Source of the DNA: Pantoea nemavictus
GTDB lineage: Bacteria; Pseudomonadota; Gammaproteobacteria; Enterobacterales; Enterobacteriaceae
Direction: 5' to 3'
DNA length: 64,000 bases
NCBI RefSeq assembly: GCF_037479095.1
Contig: NZ_JBBGZW010000001.1
Span: forward strand, 3,844,001 to 3,908,000
In this document: piece after piece, positions 6,429-49,431 of the stretch
Position numbering within the stretch: the stretch's first letter is position 1
Layout of the letters: the number at the start of each line of letters is the position of its first letter
Program-made: the position numbers and the translations under genes
The notes under the pieces: generated by a model
The model's database searches: none
Seen by the model: only the letters and a program-made list of their open reading frames with translations
Told to the model about the DNA's origin: nothing

Positions 6429-6917
6429 ATGAACATGACTATTCGACAGGCTAATTCTGCAGACGCAGACGCTATCCACAGCATGATCGCCGAATTGTCG
6501 GTTTATGAGCAGGGATTGCAGGCGTCACTCACCACTGCAGAAGAGATCAGACAGGCGCTTTTTAGCCCCGACAGTAAGTTGGAAGCGTTTATCTGTGAGA
6601 TTGACGGATCTGCTGCCGGTTATGCTGTGATTACCAGTAGCTACTCTGCCTGGCTGGGCCGCCGCGGAATTTATATGGAGGACATCTATTCCTATCCGAT
6701 TTACCGTGGTTTGGGTGTGGGCAAGGCACTGTTGCAATATGTCGCGCAGCACGCAGTGAAGCGTCAGTGTAACCGCATTGAATGGAGTGCTTTAGATTGG
6801 GACCAGTCAGCAAGAGATTTCTACCTGAGTATTGATGCGCTTCCCCTCAACGAGTGGATCCGTTATCGCCTTGACGGGGCAGCGTTAGAGAAGTTTGCTG
6901 CAGCCGATCCGCACTGA
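6429..6917 (+). CDS. GNAT-family N-acetyltransferase
   Basis: Acetyl-CoA-dependent acyltransferase, 162 residues. The acetyl-CoA pyrophosphate-binding loop is visible as YRGLGVGKALL (motif A), preceded by the strand YMEDIYSYPIYR and followed by RIEWSALDWDQSARDFYLSIDA (motif B). The pattern VEDIYV-like strand, then WxVLDWNxxAxxFY, is that of the spermidine/spermine acetyltransferase-like branch, so a polyamine or small amine substrate is plausible but not shown. Divergent from the LysR gene, which may control it. The ribosome-binding site is weak; a second Met two codons on is an alternative start. Confidence 0.85.
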   Translation: MNMTIRQANSADADAIHSMIAELSVYEQGLQASLTTAEEIRQALFSPDSKLEAFICEIDGSAAGYAVITSSYSAWLGRRGIYMEDIYSYPIYRGLGVGKALLQYVAQHAVKRQCNRIEWSALDWDQSARDFYLSIDALPLNEWIRYRLDGAALEKFAAADPH

Positions 6918-6956
6918 GGGTTCCGCCTCAACGTGTTCACCGCGCAATACAAAGAC

Positions 6957-6980
6957 AAAAAAGGCCGCCTGACGGCAGCC
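6957..6980 (-). terminator. Intrinsic terminator of the DUF1471 gene
   Basis: Read on the minus strand: GGCTGCC, loop GTCA, GGCGGCC (one mismatch), then a run of Ts. It lies 30 bp downstream of the stop at 7010. Confidence 0.8.
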
Positions 6981-7009
6981 CATTTTGGCAACTCCATTTG
7001 CGACCATGA

Positions 7010-7219
7010 TTATTTGGTCAGGCGAGCAGTCATATGCACCTGGTTACCGGCATAGGCTTCAGTGATGCTGTAACCCATTCCTACCTGTTTTGCTTTTGCA
7101 GCGATCTGCGCTTCAGCACCATCCAGAGTTGAGGCCGTAGCCGTAATAGTCTGGGCAAAACTTGCTGATGACAGCAGTGAAAGGGCGATAATAGCAACGA
7201 AAGTTTTGGTGGATTTCAT
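7010..7219 (-). CDS. DUF1471 (YhcN/BhsA/McbA) family periplasmic peptide
   Basis: Exported peptide of 69 residues. An N-terminal signal peptide (MKSTKTFVAIIALSLLSSASFAQ) is followed by a compact DUF1471 fold with the family pattern of a Ser/Thr-rich strand, a helix (DGAEAQIAAKAKQVG), YSITEAYAGNQVHMTARL at the end. Family members such as BhsA, McbA and YhcN respond to acid, peroxide or metal stress and affect biofilm. The start at 7219 has GAGGAA at good spacing; longer in-frame starts lie too close to or upstream of that site. A terminator follows. Confidence 0.85.
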   Translation of the reverse strand: MKSTKTFVAIIALSLLSSASFAQTITATASTLDGAEAQIAAKAKQVGMGYSITEAYAGNQVHMTARLTK

Positions 7220-7513
7220 GGTCATTTCCTCAGATTTTAAATTTGATATGAGGCGTTTTGCCTCGATGGAATGCATAGTAGACCTCTCCAGCTTGAGTAA
7301 AAATCCCTATTTCCTGTCTAAATTGATCAAAATAATTGAATGAAAGATATTTTTCTATTTGCCATTCGCCGCCGAAAAAAAAGCCAGCATTATTGTCAAC
7401 TAATATGAGACTAACTTTGCCTTTATTCGTCATTGTTGATTGATTAGGTTTACGATAATTTTCTCCTATCGGAAGGGCATCAGCGCCTCTCCTCATTCAA
7501 CCAGGAGAAAAAA

Positions 7514-8239
7514 ATGATTGAACAACGTTTAGCTGACCAGCGCGGACTGGGCGATCACGGCTGGTTACGATCGCATCATACTTTTTCATTCGCTAACTAT
7601 TGGGATCCCAAACAGACCGGATTCTCTGATCTGTTGGTCATCAATGATGATCAGGTGGCGCAAGGGCGCGGCTTCGGTGCCCATCCGCATAGCAATATGG
7701 AAATCATCTCTTATGTGCTGGATGGCGCGCTGGAGCATAAAGACTCTATGGGCACCGGTTCAGTGATTGTGCCGGGCGATGTACAGCTGATGAGCGCCGG
7801 AAGCGGCGTAACACACAGTGAGTTCAACCATTCAAAACAGGCAGGCGTGCATTTCCTGCAAATTTGGGTGGTGCCTGCGGAAAAAGGCGGCGAGCCGCGT
7901 TACCAGCAAACCCGCATAACGGAGCAGGAGAAACGGGGCAAATTCAAACTCATCATTTCACCGGATGGGGCAGAAGACTCACTGAAAATCAGACAGGATG
8001 TGCGCATTCACGCTGGGCTGTTTGCGGGAGATGAACAGCAGACGATGACGCTAGCAGAAGATCGCTATGCCTATATTCATGTAGCGCGAGGCAGTTTGAT
8101 GGTTAATGGCGTTCTGTTCCGTGCCGGCGATGGTGCGCGAGTACGCAATGAACCGACGCTGGTGTTCAGCGGAGGAGAAGAGGCGGAGGTATTGTTGTTC
8201 GATCTGCGCCCCAATGAAGTTAATCATCCTGTGCGTTAA
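7514..8239 (+). CDS. Pirin family protein (quercetinase-like bicupin)
   Basis: Bicupin of 241 residues, like E. coli YhhW and YhaK. The four expected metal ligands of the N-terminal cupin are in place: His57 and His59 (AHPHSNMEI), His101 and Glu103 (GVTHSEF). E. coli YhhW is reported to cleave quercetin, so a dioxygenase activity on flavonols is possible, although pirins also have regulatory roles. Strong ribosome-binding site (CAGGAG). Single gene that converges with the hydrolase gene through a shared hairpin. Confidence 0.92.
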   Translation: MIEQRLADQRGLGDHGWLRSHHTFSFANYWDPKQTGFSDLLVINDDQVAQGRGFGAHPHSNMEIISYVLDGALEHKDSMGTGSVIVPGDVQLMSAGSGVTHSEFNHSKQAGVHFLQIWVVPAEKGGEPRYQQTRITEQEKRGKFKLIISPDGAEDSLKIRQDVRIHAGLFAGDEQQTMTLAEDRYAYIHVARGSLMVNGVLFRAGDGARVRNEPTLVFSGGEEAEVLLFDLRPNEVNHPVR

Positions 8240-8244
8240 ATAAT

Positions 8245-8265
8245 GACCGGCCAAACTGGCCGGTC
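8245..8265. terminator. Hairpin between convergent pirin and hydrolase genes
   Basis: Perfect 9-bp stem GACCGGCCA / TGGCCGGTC with an AAC loop, between two convergent stop codons. No long T-run on either side, so termination strength is uncertain. Confidence 0.6.
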
Positions 8266-8281
8266 TAATGATTAACGTCAA

Positions 8282-9103
8282 TTACAGCGATTGCAGGAAG
8301 GCCAGTAAATCGGCATTCAGCTGTTCGGTATGGGTAACCGCAAAGCCGTGCGGCGCGTTGTCATACACTTTCAATTGCGCCCCCCCGATCATTTCAGCAG
8401 CGACTTTCCCTGTGGTTTCGAAAGGCACGATTTGATCGTTGCTACCGTGGATGACCAGCGTAGGAACGTCGATTTTTGCCATATCTGGACGGAAATCCGT
8501 CTCGGAGAAGGCGGTAACACAATCAATGGTGCCTTTCAGGGAGGCCAGCAGCGCGATATTTAACGTCTGCGTCAACGCCCCTTGTGAAACCGTTTGACCG
8601 GCGTTGATACCATAAAATGGCGTTGCGAAATCACTGATGAACTGCGCACGATCTTTTCTCAAGCCCTGACGAATGCCTTCAAACACCGACAGATCCACTC
8701 CTGCAGGATAATCGGCGGCTTTGCCGAAAATCGGAGTCACCGCGCCCAGCAGTACTAAGCCATCCACGCGTGCAGTGCCATAATTATTAATATAGCGCGC
8801 CACATCGCCGCCACCCATCGAGAAACCGACCAGCGTGACATTTTGCAGATCGAGATGCGTGATCAGGTCATTTATATCAGCCGCAAAGGTATCGTAGTTA
8901 TATCCTTCCCACGGCTGTTCGGAGCGACCAAAGCCACGGCGATCGAACGCGATAACGCGATAGCCATTCTCCGCCAGGAAGTTTAGCTGACTGTCCCACA
9001 TATCACCGTCTAGCGGCCAGCCATGGCTGAACAGCACCGGCTTACCTGTACCCCAATCTTTAAAATAGATCTGCGTACCATCCTGAGTCTTTAATGTGCT
9101 CAT
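8282..9103 (-). CDS. Alpha/beta hydrolase, cofactor-free haloperoxidase/esterase type
   Basis: 273-residue alpha/beta hydrolase of the bacterial non-heme chloroperoxidase/arylesterase group. The oxyanion HGWP motif is at about residue 27, the nucleophile elbow GFSMGG carries Ser95, and the remaining triad sits in HGSNDQIVPF (Asp) and APHGFAVTH (His). Such enzymes hydrolyse esters or lactones and show perhydrolase activity in vitro; the natural substrate is not evident. A good ribosome-binding site (GCAGGAAC) precedes the ATG. It may be co-transcribed behind the MFS gene, 37 bp upstream, which would make it the last gene of the amidohydrolase-DoxX-MFS operon. Confidence 0.88.
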   Translation of the reverse strand: MSTLKTQDGTQIYFKDWGTGKPVLFSHGWPLDGDMWDSQLNFLAENGYRVIAFDRRGFGRSEQPWEGYNYDTFAADINDLITHLDLQNVTLVGFSMGGGDVARYINNYGTARVDGLVLLGAVTPIFGKAADYPAGVDLSVFEGIRQGLRKDRAQFISDFATPFYGINAGQTVSQGALTQTLNIALLASLKGTIDCVTAFSETDFRPDMAKIDVPTLVIHGSNDQIVPFETTGKVAAEMIGGAQLKVYDNAPHGFAVTHTEQLNADLLAFLQSL

Positions 9104-9140
9104 GTTCCTGCCTTATACGATTTTGATGAAAGAGTGCGCC

Positions 9141-10766
9141 TTATTCAGGCGCCACGAGATAACGCACTGCCGGAAGTTCTGTGCCTTGATGGAATCCCAA
9201 CACACGATCCTGAATCTTTTGATCGTTGATGGTGTAACGTTCGCGCTGGCGTAGATGTTCCATCCACGAACCGACGACGAAGTTCTCAACAAATATGCCG
9301 GGCTGCAGCATGTCTTCATAAAGGGACCAGTTCATCGCGCCGCCACGCCTTCGGACACGGCGCATATCCTGCATACAGACCGCAAAGCCATGTGCATCGC
9401 TGCGGTTGATCTGATAGTGATAGCTCACCATCACCGGGCCGCGGTCGTGTCTAATCTCCAGCTCAGGCAAGGGATCGCTAACCGTGCTGAGATCGAGATT
9501 CAGATCGGGATCCTGATCCAGCCGCCAGCGCATCACTGTCAGGCTCGCCAGTAACATGCCCAGGGTGGCCACGGTAAGAGAGAGTGAGATGCTGAAGTGG
9601 GAGGCCAGTTGCCCCCAGATGGCGCTGCCTAACGTCATTGAGCCAAAAAACACCGTGAGATAGACCGCCAGCGCCCGGGCTTTAACCCATTTTGCCGCGC
9701 TACGCTGTGCACCGAGGTTGAGCGTGGACAGAACGGCAATCCATGCAAAACCGGTGAAGAACTCGAAAGCGTTAAGCAGCCAGATGTGGCGGATGAACGC
9801 CAGCGCCAGCATAGTGATAGCAAACATGATGCTCGCCAGCACCATTAAGCGGTCAGGATTGAAGCGTTTACGCATACGCGGTAATAACAGCGCTCCGCAA
9901 ATCGCCCCTACGCCGATACAACCCAGCATGATGCCGTAGCCGCCTGGCCCGAGGCCCAGCTCCCGCCGTGCCACCAGCGGCAATAACGCCCAACCGGCAC
10001 TGCCAAAGACAAAGAAGGCGACGGTACGTACCAGCACATTACGCAGCACCGGTGCGGCATGAACATAACGTACGCCTGCTCGCACCGCCGGGAAGAAGTG
10101 TTCCGGTGGCAAACGTTGCACGCTGGGCTGCGCTTTCCATACGAACAGCACGATAAACACGCCGAGTACCGAGAGCGCATTGAGCAGAAATACCATCCAC
10201 GGGCCGGCAAAAGACAGGATGAGGCCGCCTAGCGCCGGGCCAATCGCGCGACTGATATTGATACCAAGCGAGTTAAGCGCAATGGCGGGGCCAAGTTCTT
10301 CCTTGCTGACCAAATCCGGCACGATGGCCTGGAACGGCGGAGAGCTCATCGCCGCGCCGGTGCTCAACAGGAACGCGGCAATCAGCAGCACCATCGGTGT
10401 CACCAGCCCAGCCCAGGAGAGGAAGGTCAGGCCCGCCGCGGCGATAAACACCCAAATCTGCGAGAAAAGCAGGTATTTACGGCGATCAACAATATCTGCC
10501 ATCACACCCGATGGCAGGGCAAACAGGAACATCGGCAGGCTACTGGCGGCCTGCACCAGCGCCACGGAAAGCGGGTCGGCACTTAGCGTCAGCATGGTCC
10601 AGTTGACGCCCACATCGTTCATCCACGAACCGATATTCGATACCACTGTCGCAATCCATAGCATGCGGAACACCCGCTGGCGCAGCGGCTGCCACGGCGA
10701 AACGGCCACCGCAACGGCAGGTACATCCGCATCAGGTGTATCGTGAACATCATTAATCTGCGCCAC
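9141..10766 (-). CDS. MFS_3-type transporter with C-terminal soluble domain
   Basis: 541-residue major facilitator of the EntS-like MFS_3 group. About eleven to twelve membrane segments occupy residues 28-425; MFS motifs include GVMADIVDRRKYL (motif A). After the last helix a soluble stretch of about 100 residues (from about 440, with VMVSYHYQINRSD and WMEHLRQRERYT) resembles the antibiotic-biosynthesis-monooxygenase-like tail seen in some members. It starts at GTG with GGAGGTG upstream, inside the end of the DoxX gene (14-bp overlap), so the two are translationally coupled. Substrate unknown; neighbours suggest export or uptake of a small organic compound. Confidence 0.85.
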   Translation of the reverse strand: MAQINDVHDTPDADVPAVAVAVSPWQPLRQRVFRMLWIATVVSNIGSWMNDVGVNWTMLTLSADPLSVALVQAASSLPMFLFALPSGVMADIVDRRKYLLFSQIWVFIAAAGLTFLSWAGLVTPMVLLIAAFLLSTGAAMSSPPFQAIVPDLVSKEELGPAIALNSLGINISRAIGPALGGLILSFAGPWMVFLLNALSVLGVFIVLFVWKAQPSVQRLPPEHFFPAVRAGVRYVHAAPVLRNVLVRTVAFFVFGSAGWALLPLVARRELGLGPGGYGIMLGCIGVGAICGALLLPRMRKRFNPDRLMVLASIMFAITMLALAFIRHIWLLNAFEFFTGFAWIAVLSTLNLGAQRSAAKWVKARALAVYLTVFFGSMTLGSAIWGQLASHFSISLSLTVATLGMLLASLTVMRWRLDQDPDLNLDLSTVSDPLPELEIRHDRGPVMVSYHYQINRSDAHGFAVCMQDMRRVRRRGGAMNWSLYEDMLQPGIFVENFVVGSWMEHLRQRERYTINDQKIQDRVLGFHQGTELPAVRYLVAPE

Positions 10767-11178: not shown

Positions 11179-13056
11179 TTAGAAGGCAAAGCAGCTGCAG
11201 CCAAGCGCGCCCCAGAAGGCGTTCTCTTCCGAAACAGGCAGGTTGGCGCCGCGCGCAATCTCATGCGAATGGGTATGTACGCCGCACGGGCCGCTGCAGT
11301 GATGGGCTTGCTGCATCATACCAACGCGAGTTGTTGTGGTGGGCGGTGCGCTGCGATAGTGGCCAGGCACCATGACGACGGGCGACCAATCGGGCAGGAC
11401 CGGAATCGAAGGCGGTGCTTCCGCGCTAAAGGATCCTGCGGCATAGACGATATTCCCGTCCACCACGGTCAGCACCGATTCAATCCCTTTAATCTCCTCT
11501 TCCGGCACGCTGAAGTAGTCTTTGCTCAGTACCACCATGTCAGCCAGCTGACCGGATTTGATCTGCCCCTTTTTACCTTGCTCGCTGGAGAACCAGGCGC
11601 TTCCCTGCGTCCACAACATCAGCGCGGTGTCACGATCAAGGCGTGCGTTGATGTCGTACATCTGCATACCACCAACGGTTCGGCCAGACACCAGCCAGTA
11701 AAGTGCGGTCCATGGGTTATAGCTAGCGACACGGGTAGCATCGGTTCCCAAACCAACCGGCACGCCGGTTTCTAGCATACGCGCGACCGGCGGCGTGTGT
11801 CGGGTGGCTTCAATACCGTAACGCTCGGCGAAGTATTCGCCCTGGAAGGCCATGCGATGCTGCACGGCAATGCCTCCGCCTAACTCTTTAATACGATCAA
11901 GGTTACGTTGCGTTACGGTTTCGGCGTGGTCGAAGAACCAGTGCAGCCCGTTGAAGGGGATGTCGCGGTTTACTTTTTCAAACACATCCAGCATGCGACT
12001 GATGGATTCATCGTAAGTGGCATGCAGACGGAACGGCCAGCGGTGCTCCACCAGGTGACGCACTACGCGCTCCAGTTCATCTTCCATACCTGGCGCCAAA
12101 TCCGGGCGTGGTTCGAGGAAGTCTTCGAAATCGGCCGCGGAAAATACCAGCATTTCACCGGCGCCGTTATGGCGGAAATAGTCGCTGCCCTGGCCCGGCG
12201 TCAGCATATCCGTCCACTTTTCGAAATCTTCCAGCTCATGGCCCGGACGTTGGGTAAACAGGTTGTAGGCGATACGCAGCGTCATCTGCTTTTTCTCATG
12301 CAGTTCAGCAATCACTTCGTAATCTTCCGGGTAATTCTGGAAGCCACCGCCGGCATCAATGGCGCTGGTCAGGCCCAGGCGGTTCAGTTCGCGCATAAAC
12401 TGACGCGTTGAATTCACCTGCTGTTCCAGCGGCAGCTTGGGACCTTTCGCTAAGGTGGAGTAGAGGATCATCGCGTTCGGACGCGCAATCAGCATGCCGG
12501 TTGGGTTGCCATTGCTGTCGCGCTGGATCTCGCCACCCGGCGGATTCGGCGTGTCTTTGGTGTAACCGACCACTTTTAACGCTGCACGGTTGAGCAGGGC
12601 GCGGTCATAGAGATGCAGGATGAATACCGGTGTATCGGGCGCCGCTTCATTGATCTCATCCAGCGTCGGCATACGACGTTCGGCAAATTGGAACTCGGTC
12701 CAGCCGCCCACCACACGCACCCACTGGGGAGACGGTGTGCGCAGCGCCTGTTCCCGCAGCATGCGCAGTGCATCAGCAATGGAGGGCACGCCTTCCCAGC
12801 GTAATTCGAGGTTGTAATTGAGCCCACCGCGGATCAAATGAAGATGGGAGTCGTTCAGGCCGGGGATGGCGGTATGACCCTTAAGGTCAATCACTTTGGT
12901 GCCTTCGCAATGGTGTTGCATCACGTCGGCCAGACTGCCGACTTCAAGAAACTTACCGTCCCGAATGGCGACGGCGTCGGCAACGGGGTTGCCACGGTCG
13001 ACGGTATGGAATCGACCATTCGTCAATATGATGTCTGCTTTACCTAAAGTAACCAT
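11179..13056 (-). CDS. Metal-dependent amidohydrolase (YtcJ-like, amidohydrolase family 3)
   Basis: 625-residue TIM-barrel hydrolase. The first metal-binding motif is in PGLNDSHLHL, and a typical composite beta-sandwich N-terminus (DIILTNGRFHTVD) is present. The YtcJ-like group hydrolyses amides, carbamates or related bonds; substrate unknown. I chose ATG 13056 because AGGAGG lies 4 nt upstream. Odd feature: the last 50 residues carry a Cys/His-rich tail (HHCSGPCGVHTHSHE, then GCSCFAF), not part of the catalytic barrel. It is the first gene of the operon with DoxX and MFS and is divergent from the isochorismatase gene. Confidence 0.88.
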   Translation of the reverse strand: MVTLGKADIILTNGRFHTVDRGNPVADAVAIRDGKFLEVGSLADVMQHHCEGTKVIDLKGHTAIPGLNDSHLHLIRGGLNYNLELRWEGVPSIADALRMLREQALRTPSPQWVRVVGGWTEFQFAERRMPTLDEINEAAPDTPVFILHLYDRALLNRAALKVVGYTKDTPNPPGGEIQRDSNGNPTGMLIARPNAMILYSTLAKGPKLPLEQQVNSTRQFMRELNRLGLTSAIDAGGGFQNYPEDYEVIAELHEKKQMTLRIAYNLFTQRPGHELEDFEKWTDMLTPGQGSDYFRHNGAGEMLVFSAADFEDFLEPRPDLAPGMEDELERVVRHLVEHRWPFRLHATYDESISRMLDVFEKVNRDIPFNGLHWFFDHAETVTQRNLDRIKELGGGIAVQHRMAFQGEYFAERYGIEATRHTPPVARMLETGVPVGLGTDATRVASYNPWTALYWLVSGRTVGGMQMYDINARLDRDTALMLWTQGSAWFSSEQGKKGQIKSGQLADMVVLSKDYFSVPEEEIKGIESVLTVVDGNIVYAAGSFSAEAPPSIPVLPDWSPVVMVPGHYRSAPPTTTTRVGMMQQAHHCSGPCGVHTHSHEIARGANLPVSEENAFWGALGCSCFAF

Positions 13057-13174: not shown

Positions 13175-13219
13175 TAGTTATACAAAAGGATAGGTATACC
13201 TTCGTATAGTTATACCTAT
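13175..13219. promoter_or_regulatory. Candidate operator between amidohydrolase and isochorismatase genes
   Basis: The 233-bp divergent intergenic region contains a perfect 9-bp inverted repeat, ATAGGTATA (13190-13198) and TATACCTAT (13211-13219), with 12 bp between. TAGTTATAC occurs twice in direct orientation (13175, 13207). This fits a binding site for a dimeric regulator controlling both operons; the FixJ-type regulator at 20606-21220 is one candidate. No regulator is proven. Confidence 0.5.
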
Positions 13220-13289
13220 AGATAATAGTTTGCCTGCTCAAAGCTTCTTAGACTGCGTCGAGACATTAACCTCAATGGGATAAAACAAC

Positions 13290-13982
13290 ATGACGACGAG
13301 CAAACTTGAAGTACTGACACCGCAAAACTGCCAGATCATCTTTATTGACCAGCAGCCACAAATGGCGTTTGGTGTGCAGTCAATTGACCGCCAGGTACTG
13401 AAAAACAACGTGGTTGCGCTGGCCAAAGCGGCCAAAGTTTTCAATATTCCTACCGTGCTGACTACCGTTGAGACCGAAAGCTTCTCAGGGAATACCTTCC
13501 CGGAGCTGCTGGATGTATTCCCTGGCCAGGATATTCTTGAGCGCACCTCAATGAACTCCTGGGATGATCAGAAAGTCCGTGACGCACTGGCGGCTAACGG
13601 TAAAAAGAAAGTTGTGGTTTCAGGTTTGTGGACCGAAGTCTGTAACAACTCTTTCGCGCTGTGCGCCATGCTGGAAGGTGATTATGAAATCTACATGGTG
13701 GCTGATGCGTCGGGCGGCACCACGAAAGAGGCCCACGACTATGCGATGCAGCGCATGATTCAGGCCGGTGTCATTCCGGTAACCTGGCAGCAGGTGATGC
13801 TGGAGTGGCAGCGCGACTGGGCGCACAAAGACACCTACAACGCGGTAATGGATATTGCCAAAGAGCATTCAGGGGCTTACGGCATTGGTGTGGATTACGC
13901 GTACACCATGGTTCATAAAGCGCCTTCACGTCAGAAGAGCGAGCATCGTACTCTGGCTCCGGTCCCTGCACCGATTCGCTAA
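13290..13982 (+). CDS. Isochorismatase-family (YcaC-like) cysteine hydrolase
   Basis: 230-residue cysteine hydrolase like E. coli YcaC. Asp20 (FIDQQPQMAF) and the nucleophile Cys118 (SGLWTEVCNN) are in the expected places. The C-terminal 30 residues (KAPSRQKSEHRTL onward) extend beyond the core fold. Relatives cleave amide or ester bonds in small molecules, for example nicotinamide or isochorismate; the YcaC branch has no firmly assigned substrate. It opens the plus-strand operon leading to the XapX genes and the multidomain kinase, and diverges from the amidohydrolase. Confidence 0.9.
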   Translation: MTTSKLEVLTPQNCQIIFIDQQPQMAFGVQSIDRQVLKNNVVALAKAAKVFNIPTVLTTVETESFSGNTFPELLDVFPGQDILERTSMNSWDDQKVRDALAANGKKKVVVSGLWTEVCNNSFALCAMLEGDYEIYMVADASGGTTKEAHDYAMQRMIQAGVIPVTWQQVMLEWQRDWAHKDTYNAVMDIAKEHSGAYGIGVDYAYTMVHKAPSRQKSEHRTLAPVPAPIR

Positions 13983-14039
13983 CTGCTCAGGCGGGCAGAT
14001 CCGTTCTGGATTTGCCTGCCTCTTTTGACAGGAGGAACT

Positions 14040-14291
14040 GTGCATCCTTTACTCATTTCTCTGGCTGCTGGCGTGTTTATCGGCTTGCTTTATGCGCTGC
14101 TCAAGGTGCGCTCCCCGGCGCCGCCCGCCGTGGCGTTAGTTGGCTTGCTGGGTATGATCATCGGCAGTTCGCTAGGGGGAAAATTGACGCACCCCGTGGC
14201 CTCCGCCGCGCTAGACGATAAAAATCGGACTTTAACTGCAGCCGAAAGGCCGTCCCAACGCCTCGTTTTACACCCAAAACAGGAGGGATAA
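14040..14291 (+). CDS. XapX domain protein (first copy)
   Basis: Small membrane peptide of 83 residues with the XapX (DUF1427) signature: two hydrophobic helices separated by a conserved turn (GVFIGLLYALLKVRSPAPPAVALVGLLGMIIG). XapX proteins are uncharacterised and often come in tandem with hydrolase and transporter genes. GTG at 14040 is preferred because AGGAGG sits just upstream; a TTG at 14025 would place that site inside the gene. The stop overlaps the next start as TAATG. The C-terminal 35 residues are polar and not conserved. Confidence 0.85.
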   Translation: MHPLLISLAAGVFIGLLYALLKVRSPAPPAVALVGLLGMIIGSSLGGKLTHPVASAALDDKNRTLTAAERPSQRLVLHPKQEG

Positions 14292-14293
14292 TG

Positions 14294-14548
14294 ATGTTGA
14301 AAACCTATGCGATTTCGTTATCCGTCGGCATTTTAGTTGGCATTATTTATGCCGTAATGGACGTCAACTCACCTGCGCCACCGGTGATTGCGCTGCTGGG
14401 GCTGTTTGGTATGCTGGTGGGCGAGCAGATTGTCCCGCTGTGTCAGCGGCTCATTAACCGTCAGCCGATCACTCTGGCCTGGTTTCGTCATGAATGTGTC
14501 CCTAAAATCAGTGGCACACCACCGCCTTCAGGCGACAAAACCTCTTAA
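14294..14548 (+). CDS. XapX domain protein (second copy)
   Basis: 84 residues, same two-helix XapX fold as the preceding gene (SVGILVGIIYAVMDVNSPAPPVIALLGLFGMLVGEQ, shown here in pieces: VGIIYAVMDV and SPAPPVIALLG). The ATG at 14294 has AGGAGGGA at good spacing; an ATG three bases upstream overlaps the previous stop. The two copies may form a heteromeric membrane complex; this is inference from tandem arrangement. A 41-bp gap separates it from the receiver gene. Confidence 0.85.
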   Translation: MLKTYAISLSVGILVGIIYAVMDVNSPAPPVIALLGLFGMLVGEQIVPLCQRLINRQPITLAWFRHECVPKISGTPPPSGDKTS

Positions 14549-14589: not shown

Positions 14590-14976
14590 ATGCAGCTGTC
14601 GCAGCGCATTGTCGTTGTTGATGATGAACGTTCTGTTCGCAGTGGCCTGACTAATCTGCTTCAGTCTGAAGGTTATGTAACCCAGGCGTTCGAGTCGGCA
14701 GAGGCGCTGTTAGCGGATGCGTCGGCGCTGAAGGACGCTGCGCTGTTCATTATTGATGTTGAACTCAAAGGGATGTCGGGCTTTGACTTGTTCAGGGAGC
14801 TGGTTCAGCGTCTTGAGAATCCACCCGGCATTATTATCTCCGGCAACGGTGATGAAAATATGCTCTGGTACGCTATCAATCTGGGCGCGATAACCTTTAT
14901 GCGAAAACCTATAGATATCGACCTGCTGTTTGAACACATTCGATTGGCGTTTATGTCCCAGGCTATGCGCCCATGA
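14590..14976 (+). CDS. Single-domain response regulator (receiver only)
   Basis: 128-residue CheY-like receiver without an output domain. Acidic pocket Asp11/Asp12 (VVVDDE), phospho-acceptor Asp56 (IIDVELKG), a Ser in IISGNG and the conserved Lys in MRKPID are all present. The ribosome-binding site AAGGAAA is good. Its stop codon overlaps the start of the 1853-residue kinase (ATGA), so the two are made together; it is probably the kinase's direct phosphorylation partner or a phosphate sink. It has no DNA-binding domain, unlike the FixJ-type regulator on the other side of the kinase gene. Confidence 0.9.
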   Translation: MQLSQRIVVVDDERSVRSGLTNLLQSEGYVTQAFESAEALLADASALKDAALFIIDVELKGMSGFDLFRELVQRLENPPGIIISGNGDENMLWYAINLGAITFMRKPIDIDLLFEHIRLAFMSQAMRP

Positions 14977-17900
14977 GTACGCTGTTCCTGTCATTAAATA
15001 TTGCAGACGACGCTGGCCTGGTGCTGTCCGACGACATCGTCTTCCGTCATCTCGCCCAGCAAGGGCTGGTGGAATGGCTTGAATGCCGGCACGAGATCTC
15101 CGGTGAAACCTTCGTTCTGGCGACGGCAGCAGGCGAAGAAGCGACTTTTCAGGTTACCCAGCTGTTGAAAAATGAGTATGCGCTGCGCGCGTCATTAGCA
15201 GAAAGTTGGGCGCTAAAACCGATCAGGCACACGTTATATCAAGGGCGCTACGCCCTGATTTACCCGCCTTTCAGCTACCAAACACTGGCCGATTACCTGC
15301 ACATGCCCGCAGGAAAAATCCAGAAGTTCATTAGTCATGCGCTGCTTTTGTGCCACGCGGTTAGTAAGTTGCATCAGCAAGGTGTGGTTCATGGTGACAT
15401 AAAACCCGCCAATTTTTTCTTTACGGACGACTGTGAGGTTGTCCTCGGCGGTTTTGGCCTGGCTTTTATGGAAAACGAAGCTCAGCAGCCGCTGGGCGCA
15501 CCTATCGCCGGCGGAACGCTGGCCTACATGTCGCCTGAGCATACGTCACGCACGCCGCACCGCGTTAGTCGGGTCAGCGATCTCTACAGCCTGGGCATTG
15601 TGCTTTATGAGTTGCTCACCGGCAAACTTCCCTATGGCAGTGCCGATGGCGGCGAAGCGGAGTGGGTACACCATCACATTGCTTCCGAAGCGCTGCCGCC
15701 GCACATGCTGCGCAAAGATGTCCCACTGGTACTCTCCTCCATCATTTTACGCCTGCTGACCAAATCGCCAGAGCATCGCTATCAAACGGTTGAGGGAGTA
15801 TTGGCCGATCTCAGGCGTTGCGAGTCAAATTTGATGCCTGGCGGCAGGGTAGAGTCTTTTGCCTTAGGCTTACAGGACATGCAGACCTCGATACTTTTAT
15901 CCGACGAGCTGTACAGCGACCACGCCCAGGCCAGCGAGATGTTAGTAGCGTTTGATGAGGTATGCCGTAGCGGTAAACACTGCACGGTAGCCATTTCTGG
16001 ATCTCCCGGCTCAGGCAAATCTTCCCTGATGGTCTCGGCGTTAAAAATCCTGCGTGAGAAAAATGCGCTACTGACGGTGACGAAAGCCGACCAGCATTCC
16101 CCTATTTTGCCCTATGCCGTATTTACCTCAGCGTTCCGCTCGCTGACGCTGCATTTACTGGGCCTTCCGGCTGAGGAGATGGCGCGCTGGAAAACCCATA
16201 TTGGGCGGCTACTGGGTGACTATGCCGATTTGGCGGTCAACCTGGTGCCCGAATTGGGCATCCTGCTTAATCAAAAAGCCAGCGTACCAACCGATGCGCA
16301 CTCGCTGGATGCGCGAAATCGTTTAAATCTGCTGGCCTGTAGCCTGGTCAAAGCGTTTACGGCACCCGGTCGACCGCTGATTTTATTAATTGATGATGTG
16401 CACTGGGCCGATCAGGCAACCTTGCAGCTGCTGGAAAATTTGTTACGTTCCAGTGAAGATATTCCCTTGTTACTGGTGATCTCTCACCGCGATTATGCCG
16501 CGTTGCCTTGTCCCGAGGTGTCCGCCAGCCTGCAGCGTCTCCGTGCGGCAGCTACCCGCATTGTGGATATCACGCCTGAGCCGCTGTCGCCCAAAAATAT
16601 TGCCAACTGGCTGGCCGGACTTTTCCACGCGCGCAGCGCAGAGACGGCAGAACTTGCGCAGATTATCCATGAAAAAACCGCAGGTAATCCGCTCGCCACG
16701 CGTGAATTTTACCGTCAGGCGGTACGCGATCATCACATTACTCACTTCGCGTCTGATAAATGGACCTACCATCCGCAGGCACTCAAAAACTGCCATTACA
16801 CCGCCAACGTCGCAGCCTGCGTATTACAACAGCTGCAATTACTCTCTTATCCCGTCCGCCAGCTTTTGGGCCAGCTAGCCTGTTTAGGCAGCGCGGATGA
16901 TTTGCAGGTTTTGCGCCACATTCTGGGCATTGAGGTTAGCGCGATCCAGGCAACGCTGTTACCCGCAGTTGAAGCCCGGCTGATTGCGTTAACAGAGAGT
17001 CGCTATGCCTTTATGCATAACAGCATGCATGAAGCCGCCCTCAATTTGATTACGTCCGAAGTGAAAGACCATTTTCATCACGCTGCCGCTGAGTTCTACA
17101 TGCGGGCAACCCGCGAGGATAGGTCGCATACGCTACTGTTCAGTGCCGCACATCACATCATAACCCTCAAAAATCATGAACTGCTCACGCCAGATGCTGC
17201 TGCCTTCTGCCAGCTGTTACTGCAAGCGGCGCGGCGAGCAAAAATGATGGGTGATTACGTTTCCGCGCTGCGTTTTTTACACTGTGCCCGCGCGCTTAGC
17301 GCTGTTTCAGGATTAGAAGAGCGTGGCGAATTTCTATTTGAGCAAGCCGAGTGCGAGTTTTTAAACGGTAATTTATCGGCCGCGCTGGCGTTGAGTTCCG
17401 AGATTCTGGCCACGCCAGGCGCTGTAACGGATAAAGCCGATGCGGCCACGCTGATTGCTGAGATTCATATGCGCCAGTCAGATAGCCAGTTAGCACTGGA
17501 GACAGCGCTTGCCTGGCTGGCGGTTTTTGGTATCCATCTTGACCGCTATCCCAATAAAGCGGAGTGCGATGCCGCAAGATTGTTATTGAAAGAGGATGTG
17601 GGGAAAAATCCCTATACGCGCTTCCGCTCTTTGCCGCGTCTTACCTGCCACAAGACCGAAGCCGTGATGAACCTGATGGCCAGTGCCAGCACGTTCGCGG
17701 CCTTTATCAGTCCGCGTCTGCAGTTCATCATCCTGTGTAAACTGCTTCACCTGACAATGGCCAAAGGCATCAGTGGTGCATCAACGTTGGCGCTCTCGTG
17801 GTACGGCGTGGTGTGTGGCGATCAGTATGATGAGTACAGCCGCGGATTTGCCAGCGCATTGCTGGCGCGTGAACTGGTGTATAAGCACGACTTTGTCAGC

Positions 17901-20534
17901 TACAAAGCTCGGACGCTGATGCCACTGGATCAGGTCAGTGTCTGGACCATGCCGCTGAGTTACGCCATTGAGTGCGCTAAAGCGACATTTGATGTGGCGG
18001 TGGATATTGGCGATCGCACCTCAGCGTGTCTGGCGCTGCGTCATCTCACCATGAATTGCCTGGCGCGTGGTGACCATCTGGATGGGGTACATACCTCAAT
18101 AACCCGCGGCATAGCGTATGTGCGCAAAGCACAATATCGCGATGTGGAAGTGATTCTGGGTATGCAGCTGGATTACGTCATGTTCTTGCGTAAGCCTGGA
18201 GCAGAGACATTTTCAGGCGATCACTTTATCTCGCCCGTATTAGCGGTGGTGAAACCCGAGAACGCCATTGAACCACTCTTGCTGATGCAGTTCTGGGCTC
18301 GGCTGTATAAAGGTATGGCGCATTTTTTCGCCGGTGAATATGCTGCCGCTCATCGCCAGTTTACTGACGCAGCCCCTCTGACCGCGTTCATCCCCGGTCA
18401 TGTGCATATGCTGGATTTTCATCTGTACAGCGCGCTCTCACTCTCTATACCGCTACAGCCGACTGAGTTTGATGTCACGATGCGGCAGCGACTGCAGCGC
18501 CATCTGGATAGAATCGTTACCTGGGCATCGGAAAACGCCGGAACTTTTGCCGACAAAGAAGCGCTGTTGCGCGCCGAACTGCTAAGGCTGGCGGGTGAAA
18601 CCGGGGAGGCAATGGAGCATTATGAAAAGGCCATTGAGCTGTCGCGGAAAGGCCAGTTCCATCATATCAATGGGCTGGCGTGTGAGCTTGCCGGTCGTTT
18701 TGCTCATGCTCGCGGCATGACCTTTGCTGCAGATGGCTATATCAAAGGTGCCCACTTAGCATGGGATCGTTGGGGAGCGGGGGCCAAGGTACGTCAGCTT
18801 GAAGCACACTATCCTCATCTAACAGCCCTGCATCCACAGACGGCTTTAAACACCGTAACGTTCGAGCAAAGCGCGGCCATCAGCGACTTGCAAAGTATGG
18901 TGACCGCCATGCGCGCCTTAACCGAAGAGATAAACCTTGATCGGCTGATCCATATTTTGATGATGATGTTGGTGGAGCGGGCCGGGGCGCAGCACGCTAT
19001 TTTGATCCGTTTAGTGGACGGCAGTGTGCCTGAAATTCAGGCAAGAGCATCGTCAACGGTGGACGGGGTCAGAGTTAAAATTGTCAATGAGCGACCGGTT
19101 GCCACCGATCTGCCGCTGTCGATCCTTTCAGCGGTGATCCGTACCGGACAAGAGATCCGCACCGGAAGACCGGAAGTGTTCAGCCCGTTCAGTCAGGATA
19201 ATTATCTGGTTGCTTCCGGCGCGGCGGTAATGTGTGTGCCAATGTTCAGGCAGGCGCAAATGGTTGGGGTGCTGTATCTGGAGAATCGACTGATGCCGGA
19301 TGTGTTCACTGCTGAACACTCGCGCATTGTCTCTATGCTCGGCGCCCAGGCCGCGGTTTCACTTGAAACCGCACGGCTGTATGCCGAACTGTTGGAAGAG
19401 AATATCCAGCGGCGGAAAATTGAAAAGCAGCTGCGCGCCAGCCAGACATCATTGATGCTCGGTGAAAAAATCAGTAACACCGGAACCTGGCACTGGCATC
19501 TGACACCGGATATCCAACTGATCTCGGATGAATATAAACGCATCATGGGACTGCCAGCCGAACAGCTAAGCACTTCAATGGTGGAGTTTCAGAGCCGGGT
19601 GCATCCTGATGATATTCATTGTCTGAAAGAGTTGATTGAAACCAGCGTCCTGAATGGCGTGAGTATGCAGGCAGAGTTCCGCATTATCCGTGATGACGGT
19701 GAATGTCGCTACATTAAAGGCATCGGTGAGCCAGTAGAAAATTGGCCGGAGGTCGCCGAATATTTCGGCACGCTTACGGATATCACCGCGCAACGCCATT
19801 CAGAAGATGCGGTGAGGATTGCGCAGGCTGAACTTGCGCGCGTCGCGCGCGCGACGACGGTGGGGCAGTTAACCTCATCTATCGCGCATGAAATCAATCA
19901 GCCGCTGATGTCGATTGTGGCGAATGCGGGTGCCAGCTTGCGCTGGTTGAAACGCGATCCGGTGCATCTGGCAAAGGCCACTGAAGGTATAGAAGAAATT
20001 ATTAAAGAAGGTCGCCGGGCAGGTGAGATTATTCGCGGCTTACAATCCCTCACGCGGAATAATGTTTCTGAATATGGTCCGGCAAGAATGCATCTGCTGG
20101 CGCGCGATATTTTAACCTTGTCACGCCTGGAGCTTGAGCGTCGATCTGTTTCTCTGGAGTTAGAGATTAAAGCAGAGAGGGATGAGGTTTTTTGCGAGAG
20201 TGTACAAATTCAACAGGTGCTGCTTAACCTGGTCATCAATGCTATCGAAGCCATGGCCGATAATTCTGGCGCGCGAATCCTGCGGCTGGCCTCATCAAAT
20301 CCTACGCCTGGTTTTATTCGTATTGAGGTCGCGGATAATGGTTCTGGCTTATCAGAAGATGTTATCGATAAAATCTTTGATTCTTTCTATACGACTAAAG
20401 CGGATGGTATGGGAATGGGGCTGACGATCAGTAACGAAATTATCAAGCGTCATGGTGGCGTGCTAAATGCAGAAAATCGCCAGAGTGGCGGGAGTTTATT
20501 CTGGTTTACCCTACCGGTGCATGGGGTAACCTAA
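14973..20534 (+). CDS. Multidomain Ser/Thr-kinase-like / STAND ATPase / histidine kinase (HstK type)
   Basis: 1853 residues, of the HstK type described in cyanobacteria. Order: protein-kinase-like domain (about 1-285), ATPase with Walker A GSPGSGKS (343-350) and Walker B LILLIDD (to 475), a long helical TPR-like region (about 650-1300), GAF (about 1320-1470), PAS (about 1490-1610), HisKA with His1639 (IAHEINQPL) and HATPase to the end (NLVINAIEAM, DNGSGL). No membrane helices or HTH seen. In the kinase-like part HGDIKPAN (140-147) and SPE (187-189) are kept, but DFG reads GFG (Gly160) and no beta-3 lysine or glycine-rich loop is apparent, so it may be a pseudokinase. Coupled to the receiver gene by an ATGA overlap. 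Confidence 0.93.
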   Translation: MSTLFLSLNIADDAGLVLSDDIVFRHLAQQGLVEWLECRHEISGETFVLATAAGEEATFQVTQLLKNEYALRASLAESWALKPIRHTLYQGRYALIYPPFSYQTLADYLHMPAGKIQKFISHALLLCHAVSKLHQQGVVHGDIKPANFFFTDDCEVVLGGFGLAFMENEAQQPLGAPIAGGTLAYMSPEHTSRTPHRVSRVSDLYSLGIVLYELLTGKLPYGSADGGEAEWVHHHIASEALPPHMLRKDVPLVLSSIILRLLTKSPEHRYQTVEGVLADLRRCESNLMPGGRVESFALGLQDMQTSILLSDELYSDHAQASEMLVAFDEVCRSGKHCTVAISGSPGSGKSSLMVSALKILREKNALLTVTKADQHSPILPYAVFTSAFRSLTLHLLGLPAEEMARWKTHIGRLLGDYADLAVNLVPELGILLNQKASVPTDAHSLDARNRLNLLACSLVKAFTAPGRPLILLIDDVHWADQATLQLLENLLRSSEDIPLLLVISHRDYAALPCPEVSASLQRLRAAATRIVDITPEPLSPKNIANWLAGLFHARSAETAELAQIIHEKTAGNPLATREFYRQAVRDHHITHFASDKWTYHPQALKNCHYTANVAACVLQQLQLLSYPVRQLLGQLACLGSADDLQVLRHILGIEVSAIQATLLPAVEARLIALTESRYAFMHNSMHEAALNLITSEVKDHFHHAAAEFYMRATREDRSHTLLFSAAHHIITLKNHELLTPDAAAFCQLLLQAARRAKMMGDYVSALRFLHCARALSAVSGLEERGEFLFEQAECEFLNGNLSAALALSSEILATPGAVTDKADAATLIAEIHMRQSDSQLALETALAWLAVFGIHLDRYPNKAECDAARLLLKEDVGKNPYTRFRSLPRLTCHKTEAVMNLMASASTFAAFISPRLQFIILCKLLHLTMAKGISGASTLALSWYGVVCGDQYDEYSRGFASALLARELVYKHDFVSYKARTLMPLDQVSVWTMPLSYAIECAKATFDVAVDIGDRTSACLALRHLTMNCLARGDHLDGVHTSITRGIAYVRKAQYRDVEVILGMQLDYVMFLRKPGAETFSGDHFISPVLAVVKPENAIEPLLLMQFWARLYKGMAHFFAGEYAAAHRQFTDAAPLTAFIPGHVHMLDFHLYSALSLSIPLQPTEFDVTMRQRLQRHLDRIVTWASENAGTFADKEALLRAELLRLAGETGEAMEHYEKAIELSRKGQFHHINGLACELAGRFAHARGMTFAADGYIKGAHLAWDRWGAGAKVRQLEAHYPHLTALHPQTALNTVTFEQSAAISDLQSMVTAMRALTEEINLDRLIHILMMMLVERAGAQHAILIRLVDGSVPEIQARASSTVDGVRVKIVNERPVATDLPLSILSAVIRTGQEIRTGRPEVFSPFSQDNYLVASGAAVMCVPMFRQAQMVGVLYLENRLMPDVFTAEHSRIVSMLGAQAAVSLETARLYAELLEENIQRRKIEKQLRASQTSLMLGEKISNTGTWHWHLTPDIQLISDEYKRIMGLPAEQLSTSMVEFQSRVHPDDIHCLKELIETSVLNGVSMQAEFRIIRDDGECRYIKGIGEPVENWPEVAEYFGTLTDITAQRHSEDAVRIAQAELARVARATTVGQLTSSIAHEINQPLMSIVANAGASLRWLKRDPVHLAKATEGIEEIIKEGRRAGEIIRGLQSLTRNNVSEYGPARMHLLARDILTLSRLELERRSVSLELEIKAERDEVFCESVQIQQVLLNLVINAIEAMADNSGARILRLASSNPTPGFIRIEVADNGSGLSEDVIDKIFDSFYTTKADGMGMGLTISNEIIKRHGGVLNAENRQSGGSLFWFTLPVHGVT

Positions 20535-20605: not shown

Positions 20606-21220
20606 TTATTCATCTTTTAATAAGTTTAGCTTTTCTGCTGCCCGTACTAGCTCTGAAATGGAACGCACCGACATTTTGTCCATTACTCTGCGCTTATGTA
20701 CTTTTGCGGTAATTTCACTGATGCCCATCTCGGCGGCCATCTGCTTGTTCAATAAACCGCGAATGAGGAACTGCATCAGTTCCTTTTCACGCGGCGTCAA
20801 AGAGTGATAGCGACCGGTCAGCGCTCGTTTTTCCTCTGAGAGAGCCACGCTTTTTTCGGCTAACGCTAGCGCATCAGACACGACTTGTACCAGGTCATCA
20901 GGCATCACGGGTTTGGTCAGAAATTCAAACGCCCCCGCCTTCATTGCCCTGACCGTCAGCGGAATAGTGCCGAACCCAGTCAGAAAAATAGTCGGAATAG
21001 CGTATCCGCGTTCTGTGAGTTCATGCGAGACATCGAAGCCATCCATACCCGGCATGTTCAGGTCTACGATCAGACAGCTCGGCGTACTGAAGTGAGATTG
21101 CTGTAAAAATTGAGCAGGAGAAGTAAATGTTGAGATCAGGTAGCCTTCTGAGCTCAGAAGATTTTTCAGCGCGGTGATGACGGAGGGGTCATCGTCAACA
21201 ATATAAATCGTTCTATCCAT
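20606..21220 (-). CDS. FixJ-family response regulator (receiver plus LuxR HTH)
   Basis: 204 residues. The receiver has Asp9-Asp11, phospho-Asp53 (LIVDLNMPGMDG), a Thr in IFLTGFG and Lys in FLTKP. A LuxR/GerE-type HTH follows at about 138-200 (LTPREKELMQFLIRGLLNKQMAAEMG...). The arrangement is that of FixJ/TodT regulators. It faces the HstK-type kinase gene and is very likely its DNA-binding partner, by position and because no other orphan kinase lies nearby. Its targets probably include the island genes, which is inference. Its own upstream region (21221-21587) contains no gene. Confidence 0.9.
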   Translation of the reverse strand: MDRTIYIVDDDPSVITALKNLLSSEGYLISTFTSPAQFLQQSHFSTPSCLIVDLNMPGMDGFDVSHELTERGYAIPTIFLTGFGTIPLTVRAMKAGAFEFLTKPVMPDDLVQVVSDALALAEKSVALSEEKRALTGRYHSLTPREKELMQFLIRGLLNKQMAAEMGISEITAKVHKRRVMDKMSVRSISELVRAAEKLNLLKDE

Positions 21221-45760: not shown

Positions 45761-47434
45761 ATGTTTACAAGAATCCGCGTTGTCACCAGCTTATTGCTGG
45801 TGTTGTTGGTATTTGGTTTTCTGCAATTGGCATCCGGCTCGCTGTTTTTTAAAGCGCTAAGTGATGACAAAAACAGTTTCAACGTTTCACAACTGGCGAG
45901 CAAAAACACCGCCGCCATCAACGACGCCTACATGAGCCTCAATCAGAGCCGTGTGGTGTTAACCCGCATTCAGTTGCGCATGGCGACCAGCAAGCTCAGC
46001 GGCAGTGAAGCGGATGTGGCCGGTTTATATAACGACAGCAAAGCCTTCCAGAAAGAGGCCGCTGATAACTATCAGCTGTTTAAAGCCACGCCGGATACGC
46101 CGGGGCAGGATGCCGCGCTTAACAAGCGTCTGGATGACACCTATTCTGCTTATGCCAGCGCGCTGGGCCAGATGCAGGATGCGCTGGTAGCACAAGATCT
46201 GGTGCAGGCCGCGAAAGTGCCGGTGGCGCCAAGCCAGAGTGCGTTCCTGAAAGAGTACCGCCAGTGGCGTGCCGATCAGGACCGTTTGACGGCGAAGGGC
46301 GTCGCCGCCAACAGCTCTGCCTACGATCATATGATCTGGCTGCTGACTGCGGTGTTGGCGATCGTGGTGGCGGTGATTGTGCTGTGCTGGTTTGGCATGC
46401 GCAAAATTCTGATCACGCCGCTCAACCACAACATTCAGCATATTCAGCACATTGCGCAGGGCGATTTAACGCAGCACATTGCGGTTGTTGGGCGCAATGA
46501 AATGAGCCAGCTGGCGCAAAGCCTGCATGATATGCAGCAGTCGCTGGTACGCACGGTAAGTGATGTGCGTGACGGATCGGATGCCATCTTTACCGGAGCC
46601 AGTGAGATTTCGGCGGGCAATAACGATCTCTCGGCACGTACCGAAGAGCAGGCGGCCTCGCTGGAACAGACCGCCGCCAGCATGGAACAGCTGACCGCCA
46701 CCGTGAAGCAGAACGCGGAAAATGCGCGTCAGGCTTCGCAGCTGGCGCTGAGTGCCTCTGAAACCGCGCAGAAGGGTGGCGATGTGGTGCAAGGCGTGGT
46801 GCGTACCATGAGCGACATCGCCGGCAGCTCGAAGAAGATTGCTGACATCACCAGCGTCATCGACGGCATCGCCTTCCAGACCAACATTCTGGCACTCAAT
46901 GCGGCGGTAGAAGCGGCGCGTGCCGGTGAACAAGGCCGTGGATTTGCGGTGGTAGCAGGCGAAGTGCGAAATCTGGCGCAGCGCAGCGCACAGGCGGCCA
47001 AAGAGATCAAAGGGCTGATTGAAGACTCCGTCAGCCGCGTTAACAGCGGCTCAGCGCTGGTGGGTACCGCCGGTGAAACCATGAGCGATATCGTCAATGC
47101 GGTCACCCGCGTGACGGATATTATGGGCGAAATTGCCTCGGCATCGGATGAGCAGAGTCGTGGTATCGACCAGGTGGGTCAGGCGGTGACGGAGATGGAT
47201 CGTGTGACGCAGCAGAACGCCTCGCTGGTAGAAGAGTCTGCCGCAGCGGCGGCCTCACTGGAAGAGCAGGCCAGCCGCTTGAGCCAGTCGGTGGCGGTGT
47301 TCCGCGTACCGCGCGCGGCACAAGCACAGCCGAAAGCCGGCGTACGTCATCCGCAGATTGCACCGCCCACCTTGAGCGCACCGCGTAAAGCGGTGATCGC
47401 CGCTGCAGGCGACAGTAATTGGGAAACGTTCTAA
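45761..47434 (+). CDS. Methyl-accepting chemotaxis receptor 1
   Basis: 557 residues in the Tar/Tsr architecture: TM1 (about 8-30), periplasmic four-helix bundle (about 35-188), TM2 (about 190-212), HAMP, and a signalling domain with the hairpin tip ([20 protein letters not shown]). Methylation helices flank the tip. The C-terminus NWETF is the CheR/CheB docking pentapeptide, so it is a major receptor. The ligand domain ([17 protein letters not shown]) lacks the Tsr serine-site pattern; its ligand is unknown. Its signalling half is nearly identical to receptor 2. Followed by a MITE-like repeat. Confidence 0.93.
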
Positions 47435-47449
47435 GTTTCGGCGTCGTCG

Positions 47450-47719: not shown

Positions 47720-47752
47720 CGGGGATAGCCGAAACGCATTCCTGGAGATCCC

Positions 47753-49417: not shown

Positions 49418-49431
49418 GTTTCGGCGTCGCT

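Follow-up and report, generated by a model that had tools for sequence, protein, structure and literature searches.

A kinase-like domain without its ATP-anchoring lysine and metal-holding aspartate in a soluble sensor histidine kinase of Pantoea nemavictus

The stretch of interest, a 64,000-nucleotide segment of the Pantoea nemavictus genome (contig NZ_JBBGZW010000001.1, positions 3,844,001 to 3,908,000, forward strand), is referred to here, at its full length, as the window. It contains an open reading frame (ORF) at positions 14973–20534 of the forward strand—1853 codons, with an ATG start and no internal stops—whose product combines a Ser/Thr-kinase-like domain and a histidine kinase in one chain. 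A preliminary description, made from the sequence alone, had assigned the protein to a divergent form of the HstK architecture, with which the Pfam matches agree, and had suspected its Ser/Thr kinase domain of being catalytically dead. We propose that this domain is probably a retained pseudokinase: a module without catalytic function in a soluble sensor histidine kinase, whose output would run through a co-encoded regulator and a promoter repeat array.

The kinase-like domain and its lost residues

The domains follow one another in the order pseudokinase, AAA_16 ATPase, a long region without Pfam matches, GAF, PAS, and histidine kinase. The AAA_16 domain, which we take to be of the STAND type, carries a Walker A motif (GSPGSGKS, at residue 343) and a Walker B motif (LLIDD, at residue 471). 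No transmembrane segment was found in the protein (highest 19-residue hydropathy, 1.48). The Pkinase match of Pfam covers residues 63–271 and begins at profile position 43, an early hint of a divergent N-lobe. A missed N-terminus was considered and rejected: upstream of the ATG there are just 13 in-frame codons before a stop, and therefore no part of the N-lobe is hidden there. The features of the protein are as follows.

14973..20534, + strand: HstK-architecture protein, 1853 amino acids (ORF with ATG start, and Pfam)
15036..15263, + strand: N-lobe of the kinase-like domain, approximately residues 22–97 (secondary structure of the model)
15120..15122, + strand: Ala50, at the beta-3 Lys column (alignment)
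15174..15176, + strand: Glu68, the alpha-C Glu, retained (alignment)
15390..15413, + strand: catalytic loop HGDIKPAN, residues 140–147, with Asp142 retained (alignment)
15450..15458, + strand: GFG, residues 160–162, replacing DFG (alignment)
15531..15539, + strand: SPE motif, residues 187–189, retained (sequence and alignment)
15936..16478, + strand: AAA_16 ATPase domain, residues 322–502 (Pfam)
18933..19364, + strand: GAF domain, residues 1321–1464 (Pfam)
19521..19742, + strand: PAS domain (PAS_3), residues 1517–1590 (Pfam)
19863..20057, + strand: HisKA domain, residues 1631–1695, with phospho-acceptor His1639 in AHEINQ (Pfam; motif and profile alignment)
20199..20519, + strand: HATPase_c domain, residues 1743–1849, with N, G1, F and G2 boxes (Pfam; motif and profile alignment)

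AlphaFold2, given 60 sequences, returns a kinase fold for the domain (mean predicted local distance difference test, pLDDT, 78.1; predicted template modelling score, pTM, 0.81). The top Foldseek match is M. tuberculosis PknB (5u94; template modelling score 0.71 by query, 25% identity), and a profile search of PDB sequences again ranked PknB first. Because both searches put PknB first, the domain is, as modelled, a kinase fold.

Its residues were compared across 354 aligned kinase domains: the window protein, 119 close relatives (the best 120 of 1533 matches, minus the window protein itself), 35 proteins of a phylum sample, 80 from named genomes (the best 80 of 588 matches to a profile built mostly from double-loss members, i.e., members lacking both the beta-3 Lys and the DFG Asp), and 119 relatives found with L024 (the best 120 of 7739, minus P0136), which served as Lys/Asp controls. 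The phylum sample consists of 40 stretches with long open frames, hand-picked among the matches listed, from 398 genomes of the phylum; further matches with long frames, in G125, G129 and G225, lie outside the 40. Five of the 40 (L016, L028, L031, L038 and L040) and P0136 are absent from the alignment, and L024 is counted twice (it is also P0121). By eye, L031 and L040 lack both residues, while L028 keeps the Lys and reads IDLG.

Both residues are lost in 213 of the 354 domains, both are kept in 140, and a single row is mixed (L015, with Lys and an Asn at the DFG site); the domains are not a random sample, and the counts of 213 and 140 do not stand for frequencies in the population. The 35 phylum-sample rows, the least biased set and yet one ranked by likeness to the window, divide into 13 without both residues, 21 with both and one mixed. 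The relatives found with L024 all have Lys in the Ala50 column (119/119) and Asp in the Gly160 column (119/119), which bears out the earlier observation that the metal-binding Asp is replaced and the beta-3 Lys missing. The column of Glu68 is Glu in 118/119 of the same relatives, and this alpha-C Glu is also kept in 116/120 of the window protein and its close relatives and in 78/80 of the named-genome set. The catalytic loop and the SPE motif are intact, as first described. The glycine loop that the preliminary description found wanting is indeed missing; we rejected its absence as a sign of a dead kinase since relatives that keep the Lys and Asp also lack a GxGxxG loop (e.g., LYESRQSIIYRA).

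The double-loss domains form two subclades in the alignment, and Gly occupies the DFG-Asp column in 98 and 99% of their members, which is more than chance. At 32 Enterobacterales loci, 29 have Gly and three have Arg at this site, and none has Lys in the beta-3 column. Some kinases, the WNK group, have a substitute Lys. Among the columns of the subclade of the window protein (123 rows) no clear candidate emerged for such a Lys or for a substitute metal Asp: no column of residues 22–49 reaches 75% Lys/Arg, and the nearest and only acidic column near the DFG site is residue 153 (Asp in 51%, Glu in 24%). With both residues gone and no clear substitute column in this subclade, the view that the domain looks catalytically dead holds up. 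It is not an oddity of the window protein but a clade-wide state, and such pseudokinases have already been described (the CP1 kinases; PMC12599244).

Conservation, shortened relatives and origin

In the subclade of the window protein, the catalytic loop has the lowest mean column entropy (0.77 bits), followed by the P+1/APE stretch (0.79) and the C-lobe (0.88); the N-lobe strands and alpha-C vary more (1.2–1.6), and the DFG/activation stretch most (1.9). The corresponding values for the Lys/Asp-keeping set are 0.81, 0.63, 1.31, 1.14–1.95 and 1.51 bits; the N-lobe is no less conserved in the clade of the window protein than in this set. Since the order is similar in both sets, conservation by itself would not separate a scaffold from a ligand pocket.

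The kinase-like domain is under purifying selection. Its ratio of nonsynonymous to synonymous substitution rates (dN/dS, NG86) is 0.095–0.27 in nine pairs, with 0.095 for the window protein and L001, and 0.106 for L002 and L003; it exceeds the ratio of the ATPase part in 6/9 pairs. The gene was found in 30 of 295 family-sample genomes (E 1e-30 or better), giving 32 matches, none with stops and 31 with frames of at least 1850 amino acids. Decay of the gene was rejected on the grounds that the frames are intact and dN/dS is well under 1.

Three relatives do without the N-lobe. The first, P0241, is a 1112-amino-acid protein (locus L148, labelled Enterobacteriales bacterium SAP-6, positions 6914–10249) whose match starts at window-protein residue 114. 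It lacks the N-lobe and residues 616–1294, and keeps the C-lobe, the ATPase with Walker A, GAF, PAS, HisKA and HATPase_c in frame. The N-lobe is likewise lost from P0242 (1104 amino acids, 73% identical to P0241) and P0243 (1018 amino acids), the latter without a Walker A match. Identity between P0241 and P0242 is 0.68 in the C-lobe, 0.61 in the ATPase part and 0.88 in the histidine kinase; because the two proteins are only 73% identical overall, the N-lobe-less form appears to have lasted. In all three the GFG is altered, and in two the HRD-type Asp is Asn. Two other relatives, P0245 and P0246, keep the N-lobe and have lost most of the 616–1294 region. To judge from their sequences, P0241–P0243 cannot hold ATP in the usual way, and therefore speak, with cautions, against both catalysis and pocket sensing in the family.

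Origin was addressed with a tree of 74 proteins, comprising the window protein, the phylum sample and proteins drawn at random from the other sets, and based on approximately 620 residues that follow the kinase domain. On this non-kinase tree the double-loss label needs two changes; L013 and L039 keep both residues yet sit, on long branches, on the double-loss side. Constraining the 38 double-loss rows to one clade improved the tree by 37.55 log units over the free quick search (approximately unbiased test, p-AU 0.929), a comparison that used a quick tree. One origin of the double loss is not rejected by these data, nor is it proved. Double-loss members occur in Enterobacterales, Pseudomonas, Burkholderiaceae and Rhizobiales, and in some records labelled Acidobacteria, Verrucomicrobia, Gemmatimonadetes or Frankia, several of which are metagenome bins.

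The histidine kinase and its locus

The histidine-kinase boxes were scored by alignment to a profile made from close relatives. Of 200 double-loss proteins longer than 1600 amino acids, 191 match the profile; the phospho-accepting His is present in 191/191, and the N, D and G positions in 190/191 (one gap). Among the other nine, L052 has HisKA_3 with HATPase_c and five end alike, P0024 and P0025 end before the histidine-kinase part, and L119 was not resolved. The profile is matched by 52/135 long proteins of the other set (L015 and P0136 included); many of the remainder carry cyclase or phosphatase domains in precomputed Pfam annotation, with a cyclase in L013. By its motifs the histidine kinase of the window protein is intact, and the protein most likely signals only through it.

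The gene lies in a compact neighbourhood, the elements of which are listed below.

11179..13056, − strand: Amidohydro_3 amidohydrolase, divergently oriented (Pfam)
13175..13215, + strand: three direct repeats TAGKTATAC, at 13175, 13191 and 13207 (16-bp period)
13221..13226, + strand: GATAAT, −10-like, at a fixed distance from the last repeat, before YcaC-XapX-XapX-REC-HstK
13290..13982, + strand: YcaC-like isochorismatase-fold hydrolase (Pfam, NCBIfam, locus comparison)
14025..14291, + strand: first XapX/DUF1427 small hydrophobic protein
14291..14548, + strand: second XapX/DUF1427 small hydrophobic protein
14590..14976, + strand: single-domain response regulator (REC), overlapping the HstK start by 4 nucleotides
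20606..21220, − strand: FixJ-like response regulator, REC plus GerE (Pfam)

For the amidohydrolase, the TTG start at 13089 in the ORF list is probably too early; the ATG at 13056 is preceded by AGGAGG. The 4-nucleotide overlap of REC and HstK recurs in 11/31 relatives, with starts as chosen by script. Among the 32 Enterobacterales loci, counting the window and two that stop at contig ends (L003 and L125), the receiver gene is present in all, the amidohydrolase, YcaC-like hydrolase and XapX in 30 each, and the FixJ-like gene in 23. The receiver-domain Asp positions are constant: REC Asp56 is found at 32/32 loci and FixJ-like Asp53 at 23/23. Clustering of neighbours produced one large family, of receiver and FixJ-like proteins, at 63/118 loci; the next family reaches 13. 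L113 and L120 were excluded from the neighbour counts.

The repeat array occupies the intergenic region from which the amidohydrolase and YcaC genes diverge. This region is present at 30 loci, of which 26 contain at least two copies (loose pattern), spaced by 16 or 32 bp or by distances summing to 32 in 25 of the 26, and by 15 in L135. A −10-like hexamer (GATAAT, GACAAT or GGTAAT) stands at the same distance in 29/30. A strict repeat pair occurs in 16/31 Enterobacterales loci and 0/117 others, a single TAGKTATAC in 30/31 and 7/117, respectively. Elsewhere in the genome of the window no repeat pair was found, even allowing three mismatches. The exact motif TAGKTATAC-N5-GATAATRG occurs in 26/295 family genomes, 24 of them among the 30 gene carriers (Fisher p 1.6e-27); as the motif was drawn from these loci, the informative part is its absence elsewhere. 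Allowing one mismatch raises the number of genomes to 44, many of them with the match at unrelated positions. Two genomes carry the exact motif without being among the 30: L153, where the block is a frame-broken copy and the assembly 49% complete, and L152, which is without REC and HstK. In the L152 stretch, the amidohydrolase, YcaC, both XapX genes, the repeat site and a FixJ-like gene are all still present.

Beyond Enterobacterales, genes of the amidohydrolase block lie near two double-loss HstK genes: amidohydrolase/XapX at L107 (Acidobacteriaceae) and YcaC/XapX/amidohydrolase at L118 (Mesorhizobium). There is also a weak YcaC-like match at the edge of L040. Given the block genes near L107 and L118, the link to HstK may predate Enterobacterales. 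The arrangement suggests a local, probably self-regulating circuit, with the repeats as candidate sites of the FixJ-like regulator.

A proposed role, and its rivals

The protein resembles several known systems. CP1 kinases, found in cyanobacteria and proteobacteria, often carry GAF/PAS domains and no transmembrane segment; approximately 40% are pseudokinases with degraded motifs, all linked to the COG3899 predicted ATPase and with functions given as unknown (O'Boyle et al. 2025, PMC12599244). The window protein, with GAF and PAS_3, no transmembrane segment and degraded catalytic motifs, fits these pseudokinases by architecture; what follows its kinase domain is a Pfam match to AAA_16. While the pseudokinase class is thus already in print, the parts of that account available to us describe no single clade with coupled loss of Lys and DFG Asp, a fixed Gly, N-lobe-less forms or the operon (PMC12599244). 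Searches of the open-licence literature yielded no account of the double-loss clade, the coupled loss or the operon; within that scope, three things are new: the loss of both residues together across a clade, the relatives without an N-lobe, and the operon.

The HstK family (Anabaena Alr2258 and its kin, cbSTKIII) shares the combination of Ser/Thr-kinase domain, histidine kinase and GAF-type sensor parts in one chain, but the window protein lacks the catalytic residues of an active Ser/Thr kinase (Ala50, Gly160). Among relatives that keep Lys and Asp, cyclase or phosphatase outputs occur as well. In the portion seen of a survey of cyanobacterial Ser/Thr kinases, 97.2% have Asp at DFG, where the window protein has Gly, with Ala for the beta-3 Lys (PMC2176072). 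Its histidine-kinase part scores best against FixL (188.7 bits) and its regulator against FixJ (168.3 bits), both under the curated NCBIfam cut-offs (850 and 255, respectively); unlike FixL/FixJ, the window system adds a pseudokinase and an ATPase.

From these elements we propose the following mechanism. The GAF and PAS parts would receive the signal, while the kinase-like domain would serve as a non-catalytic module beside the AAA_16 ATPase, most likely acting through its conserved C-lobe and helping to set the sensor state; as the best reading of the sequence comparisons, we infer an allosteric or scaffold role. Ordinary Mg-ATP phosphotransfer by the pseudokinase is unlikely because the ATP-anchoring Lys and the metal-holding Asp are both gone, and we take the domain to be without catalytic activity. 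HisKA/HATPase_c would autophosphorylate at His1639, with the co-encoded REC protein and the FixJ-like regulator as phosphate acceptors; the FixJ-like regulator would then switch the hydrolase, XapX and amidohydrolase genes through the repeat array upstream of YcaC.

Several observations weigh against this proposal. Asp142, the HRD-type residue, is kept in 115/120 of the window protein and its close relatives and in 77/80 of the named set, and Lys144 in 120/120 and 78/80; this is more than a pure scaffold would obviously need. CASK, a kinase that also reads GFG, is Mg-independent. In the sister subclade (90 rows), Arg occupies column 33 in 82% and column 37 in 98% of rows, both within the modelled strand beta-2, which leaves room for nucleotide binding there; column 37 is also Arg in 90% of the Lys/Asp-keeping set. 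The N-lobe-less P0241–P0243 are few and mutually related, and dN/dS is slightly higher in the kinase domain than in the histidine-kinase part in 8/9 pairs. L152, with the same genus code as an N-lobe-less relative, has kept the block and FixJ and lost REC and HstK. Finally, a FixJ-like gene (at least 120 bits) within 3 kb was found at 37/91 double-loss loci versus 0/22 others, or 27/63 versus 0/11 where 2.5 kb of flank exists on both sides, with the FixJ-like protein of the window itself as the query. Weaker receiver-type matches lie near 46/91 double-loss loci and 11/22 others, and 44/91 double-loss loci have neither kind of match. Proximity of a response regulator as such therefore does not set the double-loss clade apart, though that of a FixJ-like one may.

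Some of these points fit an atypical kinase that binds ATP without the beta-3 Lys and the metal Asp, in the manner of CASK, ULK4 or DLHK, and that may phosphorylate or sense nucleotide. We regard this as unlikely, although it is the strongest of the rivals. The P. aeruginosa member of DLHK, a family said to be close to CP1 and often fused to helicase or nuclease domains, has GFG for DFG, Thr for the beta-3 Lys and a kept HRD Asp, and two beta-2 Args together with a catalytic-loop Arg are read as a possible ATP site (PMC12599244, as far as seen). The window protein shares the GFG, the lost Lys and the kept Asp, and the beta-2 Args of the sister subclade, like the strong retention of Asp142 and Lys144, fit such a reading; Lys144 is present in only 7/119 relatives found with L024, where Asn takes its place in 112/119. 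But the window protein differs from DLHK in having an ATPase, a histidine kinase and Lys144, with no helicase or DNA2 domain among its Pfam matches, and the family-specific catalytic-loop Arg described for DLHK is absent from its HGDIKPAN, the exact R231 column not having been mapped (PMC12599244, in the part seen). Its own subclade offers no Lys/Arg column of comparable strength in residues 22–49, the catalytic-loop Asn is His in 31/120 of the window protein and its close relatives and in 38/80 of the named set, which removes the second metal ligand, and relatives without an N-lobe exist.

A sensor whose pocket holds a non-ATP small molecule and reports to the histidine kinase, the option named first in the preliminary description, is somewhat less probable again. 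Purifying selection on the domain favors it, and a near-fixed Gly at the DFG-Asp site, with an N-lobe about as conserved as in the Lys/Asp-keeping set, is consistent with a shaped cavity. The N-lobe-less relatives speak against it; so does the lower variation of the P+1/APE stretch and C-lobe relative to the N-lobe strands and alpha-C, an argument that is weak because the Lys/Asp-keeping set shows a similar order. That the domain is a role-less relic is very improbable: the catalytic residues are lost, three relatives have shed the N-lobe, one genome has dropped REC and HstK while keeping the rest of the block, and dN/dS is slightly raised relative to the histidine kinase, but the ratio stays well under 1 in all nine pairs, the APE Glu, catalytic loop and C-lobe are strongly conserved, and the frames of the family matches are almost all full-length and free of stops.

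Returning to the non-catalytic module, a broader and more doubtful version is that the whole hybrid-sensor clade, mainly of Pseudomonadota, made its Ser/Thr kinase an obligate non-catalytic regulator once, alongside a commitment to a histidine-kinase output often paired with FixJ-like regulators, and that the C-lobe alone suffices. If true, one protein family would document the conversion of an active kinase module into a structural switch for an AAA ATPase. In public records several relatives are named 'trifunctional serine/threonine-protein kinase/ATP-binding protein/sensor histidine kinase', a label whose first function is probably mistaken in the double-loss clade. Dead and active-looking kinases share one architecture here, and a single event could account for the change; the family therefore lends itself well to asking how a kinase fold that no longer phosphorylates serves a sensor. 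With N-lobe-less relatives at hand and a candidate regulator site in a compact locus, the question can be tested in laboratory strains.

Two further observations concern the same genome. A search with the Pkinase family returned a second kinase-like match, in a 493-amino-acid frame outside the window (G000:C1:225828-226493). Within the window, positions 45761–51344 hold three consecutive methyl-accepting chemotaxis-type genes, the signalling halves of which are very similar.

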